A DNA stretch of 36,102 nt from a virus. The stretch covers positions 1-36,102 of IMG/VR virus record IMGVR_UViG_3300032116_000663; one strand, given 5' to 3'. A program made the translations under genes and the position numbers. Under the pieces are notes generated by a model that had not been told where the DNA came from, searched no databases, and saw nothing but the letters and a program-made list of their open reading frames with translations. Shown one piece after another: positions 895 through 36,102 of this stretch (position 1 is its first letter; each line of letters starts with the position of its first letter).

Positions 895-1563
895 TTAATG
901 TACCATTGGTCTTGGTTGTTCTTTAATTGTTTTTTCGTTATCAAAATTATTTTTACTCCAAGTTGCTAATCTTTTTTGAGTTTCCCAAGTTTTTTGAGTT
1001 TCCATTTTCATTTTATAACCTACTCTTGTTTTTTCACTCCAATAGTCATAAAACTTTTGTAACATAGTTTCGTGATAGACATAGGAAAAAGAAAATACTT
1101 CATTTCGGAAGTTCAATTGGCGTTCTGCCAATAAATTCTTTTCATTATTTTCATTGTTATCATTCTTATCATTCTTGTTTGGGTGACTTTGCGTTTGGTT
1201 TGCGTTTGGTTTGCGTTTGTTAGTCGTTGGATTTGCGTTTGGTGTATCTTGGTAAGTATCATAATTGCAAATAGTTATCCGTGTAGATATTTTAATGTTT
1301 TCAATTGTAATCATACCATCCTTTTCAAGAAGTTTAAAAAAGTTTCTTATGTAGTCTTTAGACACTTTAAATGTGTTTGCCCAGCTTAGTAAACTCATTA
1401 CAGATTGACCTCTCTTGCAATCATAAATATTTAATCCAATGTTTACTTTTTGGTCTGAGTGATTTACAATTAATAGTAAACCAATCCATATTCTAAATTT
1501 AACTGAATCTTGAAAAATCCAATGATTTAACAAACTTCGTTCTACTTTTATCCATCCATTCAT
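895..1563 (-). CDS. Replication initiator / replisome organiser-like protein
   Basis: This 222-aa protein has an N-terminal winged-helix region of the kind found in phage replication initiators. Recognisable stretches are GWIKVERSLLNHWIF, FRIWIGLLLIVNH and VSKDYIRNFFKLLEKDGMI, the last followed by ITICNYDTYQ. An Asn/Lys/Thr-rich linker (about residues 105-142) leads to a C-terminal region with YDYWSEK. The family is expected to bind origin DNA and load the helicase, and the primase-helicase is the next gene (2-bp gap). The linker is encoded by 11-bp tandem DNA repeats at 1188-1241 that change reading frame from copy to copy. This resembles lambda O, where the origin lies inside the initiator gene. 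The function is inferred from the N-terminal pattern and from position. Confidence 0.72.
   Translation of the reverse strand: MNGWIKVERSLLNHWIFQDSVKFRIWIGLLLIVNHSDQKVNIGLNIYDCKRGQSVMSLLSWANTFKVSKDYIRNFFKLLEKDGMITIENIKISTRITICNYDTYQDTPNANPTTNKRKPNANQTQSHPNKNDKNDNNENNEKNLLAERQLNFRNEVFSFSYVYHETMLQKFYDYWSEKTRVGYKMKMETQKTWETQKRLATWSKNNFDNEKTIKEQPRPMVH
1188..1241. repeat. 11-bp phased tandem repeats (candidate origin iterons)
   Basis: Copies of TTTGCGTTTG (plus strand) begin at 1188, 1199, 1210 and 1232. A degenerate copy lies at about 1220-1230, so the array keeps an 11-bp pitch, about one helical turn. It lies inside the initiator gene next to an AT-rich, ATCATTCTT-repeating stretch (about 1138-1177). 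Because 11 is not a multiple of 3, the repeat encodes different residues in each copy, which argues for a role at the DNA level. The arrangement resembles lambda ori (iterons plus AT-rich region within O). Origin function is an inference. Confidence 0.55.
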
Positions 1564-1984: not shown

Positions 1985-2100
1985 GCAAAAACCTCAATAA
2001 ACTTGTGGAAGAAGTCTATCGAGGTTCGCTTATATCGGTGTTTCCACCTTTATTTTTGATTAGTTGTCTTCCACACAACTATTAATTATCTATAAGAACT
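1985..2100 (-). ncRNA. Structured RNA / attenuator leader with complementary hairpin loops
   Basis: Transcription from the promoter at 2104-2133 would start near 2097 and produce about 110 nt ending in a U-tract. Hairpin 1 (2081-2061) has a 7-bp stem, UAGUUGU/ACAACUA, and the loop GUGGAAG. Hairpin 2 (2048-2037) is GGUG-GAAA-CACC, a GNRA-type tetraloop. Hairpin 3 (2026-1990) has a 15-bp stem with two G-U pairs and the loop CUUCCAC, followed by UUUUU. The loops of hairpins 1 and 3 are perfectly complementary over all 7 nt, as expected for an intramolecular kissing interaction. The GUGGAA of hairpin 2 could compete. No ORF fits here. It may be a free small RNA, a leader controlling the replication genes, or both. 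I recognise no known RNA family. Confidence 0.65.
1987..2026 (-). terminator. Intrinsic terminator forming the 3' hairpin of the structured RNA
   Basis: On the minus strand the arm AACCTCGATAGACTT pairs with AAGTTTATTGAGGTT across the 7-nt loop CTTCCAC. Two pairs are G-U. The descending arm runs into TTTTT and then GCTTTT. It separates the promoter at 2104-2133 from the first downstream gene at 1972. Confidence 0.75.
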
Positions 2101-2103
2101 TTT

Positions 2104-2133
2104 GCAAAGATAGTAAATTAAATTGGATTACAA
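2104..2133 (-). promoter_or_regulatory. Bacteroidota-type promoter for the structured RNA / replication genes
   Basis: The minus strand shows TTG (2133-2131), 18 nt, then TATCTTTGC (2112-2104), a perfect TAnnTTTGC -7 element. Spacing and sequence match the two other early promoters at 5207-5236 and 8889-8918. It begins directly after the stop codon of the upstream gene (2139). Confidence 0.7.
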
Positions 2134-2895: not shown

Positions 2896-3390
2896 TTAAT
2901 AATTTATTGTTTGTTGCTCGTTTGGCGATGGCAAGGTAATGTTCAGAAAGTCTTTGGCCCAAGTAATTAGATTGTCGATAAAATCAATAAACTCTGATTT
3001 TGTTAAGGTGGTTGTTGATCCAATCTTCTCATAAGGCTCAACTTTTTCAATGTCGTAAATTTCACCGGTGTTCACATCAACATAAATTCCATCCTCCAAT
3101 GCTAAGATAACAGATTTGCCATTTACAATGGATATAAAGCGTTTTAATTTAAGAAACTTATATTTTACCAACTCGTGCATTTCGTCTTTGCTATGGCCTA
3201 ATTCTTTGGATAGAATGTCGATATAAACCCAATAGAGTTTATTCTGCTGCAAACTTCTTGAACTTCTTTGTTTTTCAATAGTTACCACTACTCTTTTACC
3301 CTCCAAGTGTGCTAATTCTTGGAGGATATTTTGAGTTGTGTTTTTTTGCAACTTACCATCTTTGACCGTGCTGAAAAAAGTTGATTTCAT
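2896..3390 (-). CDS. NinB-like recombination protein
   Basis: This 164-aa protein has the layout of NinB (lambda Orf) family recombination mediators. An early RSLQQNKLYWVYIDILSKELG matches the RSxxQNxxxW core. It is followed by DEMHELVKYKFLK and a C-terminal LTKSEFIDFIDNLITWAKDFLNITLP(S)P. Family members bind SSB-coated single-stranded DNA and help annealing proteins. Its position between Gp157-like and replication genes, downstream of Erf, fits that role. It overlaps the previous gene by 1 nt (stop/start), indicating translational coupling. The assignment rests on motif pattern, not alignment. Confidence 0.7.
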   Translation of the reverse strand: MKSTFFSTVKDGKLQKNTTQNILQELAHLEGKRVVVTIEKQRSSRSLQQNKLYWVYIDILSKELGHSKDEMHELVKYKFLKLKRFISIVNGKSVILALEDGIYVDVNTGEIYDIEKVEPYEKIGSTTTLTKSEFIDFIDNLITWAKDFLNITLPSPNEQQTINY

Positions 3391-11426: not shown

Positions 11427-11765
11427 TTAAAATTTTATAATTGTACTACAAAATTCTGAACTATCTCCATAATCGGTTATAGTTTTCAAATGTGCCATAA
11501 CTTGCTCACTTGATAATTTCCACCAATTAATAATGCTGTTTGCTTCGTCATTATATTCAGTCTGAATCCACAATGCAACCTCGCCTATGCTAATATAATT
11601 ATGGTCTTTCAATACTTTCTCAAGTAATAAATTGTGATAATCGTTTACCTCTTTTTTGTAAAGGTCAATTGGCGAAATATAACTCATTGTTTTTTCTCCG
11701 TTGGTGTCGGTTACTATCCAACTATCAACTCCATTGCCTTGTAATTTGTATGTGAATGTTTTCAT
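11427..11765 (-). CDS. Hypothetical protein following the tail fibre
   Basis: This 112-aa soluble protein begins with a beta segment (TFTYKLQGNGVDSWIVTDTNGEKTMSYISPIDLYKKE, in parts). The rest is helical, with VALWIQTEYNDEANSIINWW. It starts 1 bp after the fibre stop. Small proteins directly after phage fibres are often fibre-assembly chaperones or fibre tip caps, and this is the most likely role by position. No motif confirms it. Confidence 0.55.
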   Translation of the reverse strand: MKTFTYKLQGNGVDSWIVTDTNGEKTMSYISPIDLYKKEVNDYHNLLLEKVLKDHNYISIGEVALWIQTEYNDEANSIINWWKLSSEQVMAHLKTITDYGDSSEFCSTIIKF

Positions 11766-22909: not shown

Positions 22910-23747
22910 AATTATTATTTATTTCGTTAAATGGTGTTTCATAAACTTGAAAATCTGCAGGCCACACATTCATCCCTTGCATAATACTTGGAAAGTCTTG
23001 ATTGTATTCGTTCTCAAAAGTACATTCCAATTGATAGTTTGTTGATGTTGCTATTAATACGTTGTCGTGGTTAAGTGCTACAACTAACTTTTGATGTATT
23101 TCTTCGGGCAAGAAGTCGGTAACAAATTTATATTTTTTGGCTAATCTTGCAAATACTTTTGTTCTTTCTCCATTGCTTCTAACATAAGTTTGTTGCTCGA
23201 TGTCAAAGGCAGGACTTGTGGCATACATTGGCAATCTTATTGCATTTCTTCTGTTCTCAGCATCGGGATAAATAAATCCAAAGGCATCCTCATTATTAGT
23301 ATAAGTTATGCGACTTGTAAAACATTTATCTACACAATATTTAAAACAAGTTATTGATGTTATTGATAGGTACGCTGGTGGCTCATCTTTTAAAAAGTTA
23401 AATTGTAATTGGAAACAATCTCCATCATTTAATCCATTCAGCAAAGACGATATGTCAAATTGAAGAAATATAATGTAATTGTTTGTTGATATGGTTTGAA
23501 TGGATTTACCTACCGTTGTTATTGTAGTCAATCCACTACTTGTTAACCTTCTTACTTGAAAAGCACTTAATAAGTTTGTTGATGTTGCATAATCGTTTGA
23601 TGTAACTTTAAATTGCATCTTTAAATCTCCTGCCTCACATATCGGTAAACAAGTATCTACAACAATTCCACAATCATTGTCCGTAATAAATTCTTGGTCG
23701 TGAAATCTTACAAAACTATTTTGTAAATCTATAAGGCTCGTTGCCAT
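22902..23747 (-). CDS. Tail / baseplate structural protein
   Basis: This 281-aa beta-rich protein carries several Cys residues (GIVVDTCLPICEAGD; CFKYCVDKCF). It ends with PADFQVYETPFNEINNNCG. It follows the 726-aa tail protein with a 1-nt overlap. The order tape measure, large protein, this protein suggests a distal tail or baseplate component. I recognise similar sequences only as unnamed structural proteins of Bacteroidota phages. Confidence 0.6.
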   Translation of the reverse strand: MATSLIDLQNSFVRFHDQEFITDNDCGIVVDTCLPICEAGDLKMQFKVTSNDYATSTNLLSAFQVRRLTSSGLTTITTVGKSIQTISTNNYIIFLQFDISSLLNGLNDGDCFQLQFNFLKDEPPAYLSITSITCFKYCVDKCFTSRITYTNNEDAFGFIYPDAENRRNAIRLPMYATSPAFDIEQQTYVRSNGERTKVFARLAKKYKFVTDFLPEEIHQKLVVALNHDNVLIATSTNYQLECTFENEYNQDFPSIMQGMNVWPADFQVYETPFNEINNNCG

Positions 23748-35308: not shown

Positions 35309-36102
35309 TTAGAAGGCATCGTCTGCAATGTTTTCAAATTGGTTTTTTGGCTTAAACTCCCAATTGTCTTTATCGTTTATTGGTGTGTCAAATGCTCCGT
35401 TTGGCTTTATTGGGGTTGGTGGTAGTTCAAATGCTTCTACTTGTTTCTTCTCAGGCAATAACCAATTTGTGTTATCAGGAATAAAAGTATAATATCGGCC
35501 ATTTATAAAGTGCCATCCCAAAGAACACATTGTGCCTGATTGGCCCCAGTGTTTAAATTTTACTTTCTGTATGTATATTTCTGTTTTCTTTGAGTCATAG
35601 TTTCTATACACGGTTAATCCGTTGTGAGTTTTATTGAAGAAGTTTGCAGATCCATTTATGTTGTAAAGGTTTGGAACTTCAAACAATCCGCTTTTTTTAT
35701 CTTTCATAATCTTTGTTGGATGGGCCACCAAAAAGCAGTGCACCATATTTCTTTCGCAAAAGGTTGCCAATATATCTAACTGTTTACTTACATAGTGAGT
35801 GGAATCTTCATTGTGTTCTAACTTATTCCAAGCATCAATTACAAAGGCATTAACTCCGTATTTTCTAATTAAACTTTTTACCATTCGCAAAATATCCTCA
35901 AGTTTAAAATCATTTTCGGGTTTTATAAAAAAAAAGTTTTTAGAAAAGTAATCTTTGGCCAATTCCAATTCCATTTTATTCATTTTGTAATTTCCATCAA
36001 ATGCTTTGCCTATTAATTTCTCAGCAAACTTGCTAAAGTGAAGTTCTAAAGGATAGTTTTCAGGGCTGAATAAACCAAACTTCCACCCGGCACGAATGTT
36101 TA
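35309..36102 (-). CDS. Primase-helicase, C-terminal part (enters from the window edge)
   Basis: The frame entering at 36102 reads NIRAGWKFGLFSPENYPLELH after the junction codon. It continues with KLIGKAF and then GVNAFVIDAWNKLEH (Walker B region), FCERNMVHCFLVAHPTK and INGSANFFNKTHNGLTVYR. It ends with KVKFKHWGQSG and the stop at 35309. These are helicase motifs of the T7 gp4/DnaB family. About 263 residues are present. The fragment lacks the linker end and the Walker A P-loop that normally stand before GWK, and the N-terminal part (1-892) ends just before them. Both pieces share one frame across the window ends, so a segment of roughly 50 codons is missing at the join. Confidence 0.92.
   Translation of the reverse strand, partial: NIRAGWKFGLFSPENYPLELHFSKFAEKLIGKAFDGNYKMNKMELELAKDYFSKNFFFIKPENDFKLEDILRMVKSLIRKYGVNAFVIDAWNKLEHNEDSTHYVSKQLDILATFCERNMVHCFLVAHPTKIMKDKKSGLFEVPNLYNINGSANFFNKTHNGLTVYRNYDSKKTEIYIQKVKFKHWGQSGTMCSLGWHFINGRYYTFIPDNTNWLLPEKKQVEAFELPPTPIKPNGAFDTPINDKDNWEFKPKNQFENIADDAF

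Follow-up and report, generated by a model that had tools for sequence, protein, structure and literature searches.

The window analysed here, a virus record of 36.1 kb, carries its assigned genes on the minus strand. The ends of the record cut through the gene for a TOPRIM primase-helicase (Table 1), so that the record looks like a circularly permuted, near-complete genome. After its leader, the replication operon runs through ORFs of 63 and 68 amino acids to a DnaD-like initiator and the primase-helicase. The leader element, also on the minus strand, occupies the interval between a 130-aa ORF (2531-2139) and the 63-aa ORF (1972-1781); which ORF is found at the latter position differs from phage to phage. 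A structured RNA upstream of the initiator and primase-helicase genes had been predicted from the sequence of this region, and this is what the analysis found.

Table 1. Features of the leader and replication operon in the window, and of related elements in cultured phages
Feature	Position	Strand	Basis and remarks
TOPRIM primase-helicase, N-terminal half	2-892	minus	PHROG 239 and Pfam Toprim; remainder at 35309-36100
DnaD-like helicase loader / initiator	895-1563	minus	PHROG 2514, E = 3.9e-29
63-aa ORF, opens the replication operon	1781-1972	minus	Start codon 14 nt past the U-tract
Promoter -33 element, TTG	2131-2133	minus	Sequence; 18 nt ahead of the -7 element
Promoter -7 element, TATCTTTGC	2104-2112	minus	Sequence; Bacteroidota type TAnnTTTG
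Hairpin H1, UAGUUGU-loop-ACAACUA	2061-2081	minus	Folding; homologue comparison
H1 loop GUGGAAG (L1)	2068-2074	minus	Complement of H3 loop; seven alleles in the window's family
Hairpin H2, GGUG-GAAA-CACC, GNRA tetraloop	2037-2048	minus	Homologue comparison
Terminator hairpin H3	2027-1989; 1983-2031 with outer helix	minus	Folding, terminator scan, covariation
H3 loop CUUCCAC (L3)	2005-2011	minus	Pairs with L1
Terminator U-tract UUUUU	1987-1991	minus	Sequence; kept in homologues
Second kissing leader, GUCGUCG/CGACGAC	L284 (tooticki6-1) 11641-11678, plus upstream hairpin		Directly before endonuclease gene (PF07463)
GGUAAUCUU(A)AAACC motif sites	L284 12731-12779; L269 about 2324-2367; L271 about 3228-3280		

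The promoter, the three hairpins and the complementary loops GUGGAAG and CUUCCAC proposed for this RNA were all located on the minus strand. Between 2100 and 1974 this strand folds with a z score of -4.6, none of 200 shuffles being equally stable, and seven other distinct homologous leaders score from -2.9 to -5.8; folding of the plus strand is weak (z = -1.5). H3 is the sole terminator-like hairpin returned by a scan of positions 1700-2600, where 0.2 were expected. The original prediction was right in describing it as a terminator hairpin with a CUUCCAC loop but made it too short: an outer helix, formed by AAGC (2031-2028) and GCUU (1986-1983), extends it past the U-tract. As L3 is unpaired within the hairpin, kissing with L1 and formation of the terminator are compatible.

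Hairpins of this kind might also matter as single-stranded DNA near a replication origin, for instance as a loading site for primase or initiator. The element does adjoin the initiator and primase genes, and iteron-like repeats are found inside the former; a promoter at one end, a U-tract at the other and GNRA tetraloops nevertheless indicate a minus-strand RNA, as do 16 G-U against 5 A-C cells on that strand, a count which prediction by RNA rules biases towards RNA. We consider a role as DNA very improbable. The repeats themselves, at least four direct copies of TTTGCGTTTGG (plus-strand reading) at window positions 1186-1245 in the DnaD-like initiator gene, likely mark the replication origin, as in lambda-type origins.

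A relative of the 63-aa ORF is encoded by 15 viral contigs, all 15 of which have a homologous leader upstream; pattern scans for extra members of this family yielded two more loop alleles along with many chance hits. Seven loop pairs occur (GUGGAAG/CUUCCAC, GUAGGAG/CUCCUAC, GUCGGAG/CUCCGAC, GGGCAU/AUGCCC, CGGCAU/AUGCCG, GGCCAU/AUGGCC and GUGCCA/UGGCAC), every one of them perfectly complementary by Watson-Crick rules, and swapping loops among alleles of equal length costs one to four pairs. The stems are paired in 97.7% of cells, with two-sided changes at 10 pairs and a covariation score of 0.35; shuffles gave 0.19, none of the 500 reaching the observed value, and slid controls no more than 0.14. 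The 5-bp core stem of H1 is kept in eight of eight distinct homologues, with a single U-A to U-G change, and the stem of H2 covaries while its loop stays GNRA (GAAA or GCAA). Covariation of the stems and of both loops together, which had been set beforehand as the test of the structure, is thus borne out by the seven loop pairs and the shuffles. One detail fell away: the competing GUGGAA noticed in H2 is present in the window, but it matches nothing in the other alleles and must be a coincidence.

The outer helix of H3 covaries as well (AAGC/GCUU, ACGC/GCGU and AAAC/GUUU in different members), which suggests that RNA reaching beyond the U-tract is also under selection, the read-through RNA being itself a selected structure. 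This is a point against an attenuator and could mean control of translation or of mRNA stability, for which the pseudoknot of the T4 gene 32 mRNA is a precedent: a hairpin locked by the kissing interaction about 10 nt before the start codon would govern ribosome access or decay. In the window's family the distance to the start codon is indeed short and constant, the end of the U-tract lying about 10-14 nt from the first ORF of the replication operon. Such a function seems unlikely to us, however, given that the U-tract is kept in all members (4-5 U in every case) and in unrelated leaders, and that in several isolates as much as 41-55 nt separate the U-run from the start codon further downstream.

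A BLASTN search with the leader found no match among phage and plasmid records, so the wider class was reached via neighbouring proteins, namely primases at 29-57% identity or distant DnaD-like proteins. Leaders at these distant loci lack sequence similarity, yet their plan is identical: a promoter, H1 near the 5' end and, some 40-75 nt further on, the terminator hairpin H3 shortly ahead of an initiator/primase operon. The H1 loop is always complementary, over 6-13 nt, to a single-stranded segment of H3, and the sequences of both are hypervariable; examples are GUAGGAU/AUCCUAC in L238, GUAGAAG/CUUCUAC in L241, GUCAGAG/CUCUGAC in L026, GUAAGAG/CUCUUAC in L028 and a 13-nt match in L237. Since our covariance model R1 detects the window's family only (other architectures score 13-25 bits), these leaders are assigned to the class by layout and loop match.

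An automated scan took in all terminator-like hairpins of these loci, with the window's own family left out. A complementary upstream hairpin loop was found for 16 of the 37 terminators that stand ahead of initiator/primase genes and near a start codon, against 5 of 429 other terminators in the same loci (Fisher P about 1e-15); the expectation from shuffled upstream sequence was 0.0 and 3.3, respectively. The 16 positives are partly related and amount to some ten independent cases, that of L047 (AGAGGA) being weak. Across 29 alleles from about 15 unrelated leader types, loops match their own partners over 6-13 nt (mean 7.3) as opposed to 2.9 for swapped partners, and none of 20,000 permutations did as well; this list was collected by hand after the matches had been seen, which makes the automated scan the fair test. 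The two loops are spaced 40-76 nt apart. In 23 of 28 leaders a TAnnTTTG-like box (a loose pattern) lies 16-45 nt ahead of the H1 loop, which places H1 near the 5' end of the RNA. In Vibrio phages with DnaD-like initiators (L272, L273) and in Bacteroides phage B40-8, the kissing signal was not above background. The window and its relatives have in common a 5' hairpin loop that complements the interior of a terminator upstream of replication genes, and the window's element, almost certainly a conserved kissing leader, belongs to a widespread class, found mainly in phages of flavobacteria, which we name kissing-loop leaders. The design suggests a kind of RNA switch that has so far gone unrecognised, one that comes in many unrelated sequence forms, is invisible to sequence-based RNA searches and was found via a self-complementary loop beside a terminator.

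Carriers among cultured phages are Flavobacterium phages tooticki6-1 and relatives, morran (morran9-1), snusmum and elemoA, Cellulophaga phages phi10:1, phi19:1 and phi18:3, and Tenacibaculum phage JQ, in which the match spans 10 nt; in Polaribacter phage P12002S a kissing leader precedes a primosomal gene. Compensated loop alleles of the Baltic Flavobacterium phages are GUGAGACG, GUGAGAAG and GUGGAACG, with GUGAGAUG in elemoA. Whole-genome scans of single phages gave totals no more than 1.4 to 3 times what shuffling predicts, so that the kissing signal is specific to these sites and does not reflect a general excess. Between the kissing terminator and the start codon, Flavobacterium and Cellulophaga phages share the motif GGUAAUCUU(A)AAACC. 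The study of the Baltic phages describes its 38 lytic isolates as virulent (PMC7077304), and lysogenic immunity can therefore not be the function of the leader in these phages.

Several Baltic Flavobacterium phages have a second kissing leader, with different loops, ahead of an endonuclease gene, and the design is thus not confined to replication operons. In Flavobacterium phage morran9-1 (L278) the place of the relatives' second leader and endonuclease gene is taken by a DUF805b RNA of Rfam (RF02914, 52 bits; 87-121) before a ParB-like gene. Cellulophaga phage phi18:3 (L286) has a possible second kissing leader, CCUUCAC/GUGAAGG, at 23627-23685, just before gp059.

The leader before the endonuclease gene and the many phages that have DnaD-like initiators and no kissing leader count against an attenuator. 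The former would also suit a stable phage small RNA of ~105 nt, closed through a kissing loop and terminator of its own and directed at other targets (host mRNA, sponge, counter-defence), for which a position ahead of replication genes would be merely convenient. Its own promoter, a strong terminator and a compact structure with a GNRA hairpin agree with such an RNA. Yet the U-run lies 10-29 nt from the start codon in 23 of 28 leaders, the element is kept before many different replication operons, and the hypervariable loops pair with each other, no other variable single-stranded segment standing out as suited to targeting; a small RNA with other targets is in our judgement improbable. Small RNA and attenuator had both been offered in the original prediction, and it is the attenuator that is favoured, and the stand-alone small RNA less so, by the location of H3 about 10-14 nt before an ORF, a place that is kept as the genes change.

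In every member of the window's family that was examined, the element stands ahead of a short ORF, an initiator and a helicase, and all three of these vary independently of the loop allele, initiators falling into at least six sequence types and helicases into the TOPRIM primase-helicase or DnaB type. In contigs L090 and L258 the 2 kb upstream of the leader agree at 96-99% and the 1.5 kb downstream at 90-96%; the leaders in between, 52% identical, are unrelated, and each kisses internally. Similarly, identity between L003 and L007 falls from 99-100% upstream and 96% in the first ORF to 78% in the leader, and that between L009 and L007 from 95-99% over 1.5 kb downstream to 64% in the leader. 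The architecture of L258 is distinct, with a GNRA hairpin nested inside the terminator, and its H1 loop, UUCCGC, still has its complement in the interior of the terminator. Across phages of the L258 type and of the window's family (family A), identity in the 60-nt promoter region is 85-100%. One metagenome, 3300042691, contains two leader types, CGGCAU and UUCCGC (L008 and L227). Since near-identical phages (96-99% in the flanks) can have wholly different leaders, the leader is evidently exchanged between phages as a cassette. Three loci with 54-57% identity to the window's primase (L238, L241 and L248) swap both initiator genes, DnaD-like or other, and leaders; judging from these comparisons, the whole initiation module is a mosaic there.

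Loop-dependent RNA-RNA recognition best explains that cassettes are swapped between conserved flanks. Identical hypervariability and cassette exchange would be expected if the loops diversified to evade some leader-reading factor of a host or prophage, kissing being kept for structure only. Escape alone, however, does not require the loop match that unrelated architectures have kept. Nor did a covariance search of 299 Flavobacteriaceae genomes with the narrow model R1 uncover a relative of the window's family on a chromosome; beyond unrelated sites and plain terminators that lack H1, nothing came from this search or from a scan of genome contigs for one exact pattern. We give escape little credence.

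The expectation that the leader belongs to no known RNA family held in a search of the window against Rfam, where no family rose above threshold. The sole hit above cut-off at 14 related loci was the unrelated DUF805b RNA, and c4 RNA was not among the sub-threshold matches. The Rfam model of CopA (RF00042, cut-off 60) scored 33.6 bits in the window, 34.3 in L076, 14.4 in L005 and nothing in L003 and L113. The CopA/CopT system of plasmid R1 likewise uses kissing loops in replication control, and H2 and H3 of two members match the model because the terminator hairpins share an AAGC...UUUUUGCUU frame. Membership was rejected: the scores are under the cut-off, the resemblance is limited to one hairpin, and CopA is antisense to the rep mRNA whereas the kissing leader is a sense RNA directly upstream of replication genes. 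In ColE1, RNAI and RNAII interact through fully paired 7-nt loops, as L1 and L3 would, and loop identity sets the specificity of plasmid incompatibility; there, the two RNAs are read from opposite strands and it is a primer that they control, whereas the kissing leader has both in one RNA before protein genes.

Attenuation in pT181 takes place ahead of the replication initiator gene, a position shared by the leader, and relies on a countertranscript that changes which stem forms. The loop match of the kissing leader, in contrast, leaves the terminator stem intact, and the consensus fold contains no mutually exclusive conserved alternative stem. No countertranscript was identified, and no opposite-strand promoter pair of the sigma-70 type aimed at the leader stands out, in a scan whose scope does not extend to Bacteroidota promoters. 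The pT181 attenuator, originally proposed as a close parallel, gives way by layout to the CI RNA of P4, which is in our analysis the closest functional parallel and is preferred because it needs no countertranscript; immunity specificity differs in phiR73. CI RNA derives from a leader, pairs with complementary leader sequences and controls replication genes by premature termination (PMC4825925). Like the c4 antisense RNAs, it belongs to the untranslated leader of a phage replication operon, as does the element of the window and its relatives. Unlike P4, in which three complementary segments (seqA, CI and seqC) are involved, the kissing leader has a single pair, L1 and L3, both in hairpin loops and one inside an intrinsic terminator; it has no known processing signal and no Rfam match, and its carriers include virulent phages (PMC7077304). 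Given the Rfam scores, the opposite strand of CopA and the different layout of P4 CI, the leader is filed as a variant of RNA-based replication control outside the known families. Searches of open-access literature turned up no account of kissing loops, whether in phages of Flavobacterium or in phage attenuators, and we know of no class of kissing-loop replication-control RNA in Bacteroidota or in virulent phages.

Where a U-tract follows a stable stem, bacterial RNA polymerase terminates with some efficiency, and fully paired loops of 6-7 nt form stable kissing complexes, as in TAR-TAR* and RNAI-RNAII. The gap from H3 to the first ORF has no space for a further promoter, so the operon would be transcribed by read-through of H3, and the leader probably acts, as an attenuator, on termination ahead of the replication genes. 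RNA polymerase would either stop at H3, releasing an RNA of ~105 nt, or read on into the operon, and pairing of L1 with L3, compatible with the H3 hairpin, would set how frequently it stops. As this pairing leaves H3 intact in the predicted fold, raised and lowered termination are both compatible with it. The terminated leader, which holds both partners, could furthermore pair with a nascent leader transcribed from any genome that shares its loop type, whether own progeny or a superinfecting sibling, and would then be a self-specific, copy-dependent brake on the replication genes, as in the case of P4 CI RNA. Such a brake in trans would explain the swapping of loops and whole leaders among near-identical phages. 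We regard this self-specific action as possible, if doubtful; a cis-only version, in which pairing tunes termination within one molecule, is about as likely. A brake on a phage's own replication genes needs a reason in virulent phages (PMC7077304). More tentatively still, one can imagine a polymorphic RNA self-recognition in which terminated leaders, by double loop-loop pairing, would shut the replication operons of the same loop type only.

Kissing-loop replication control is a classic of plasmid biology. For flavobacterial phages, which play an important part in algal blooms and have few known means of regulation, the leader is a concrete and testable regulatory device; the naturally compensated loops of the cultured tooticki, morran and snusmum phages lend themselves to a comparison of action in cis and in trans. 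If loop type decides which genomes replicate together, exclusion between related lytic phages would have a simple RNA basis. If self-recognition holds true, resident genomes would exclude or count identical ones while phages of a different type escape, and frequency-dependent selection would keep many loop types in circulation and turn the leader into a hot spot for the exchange of cassettes.
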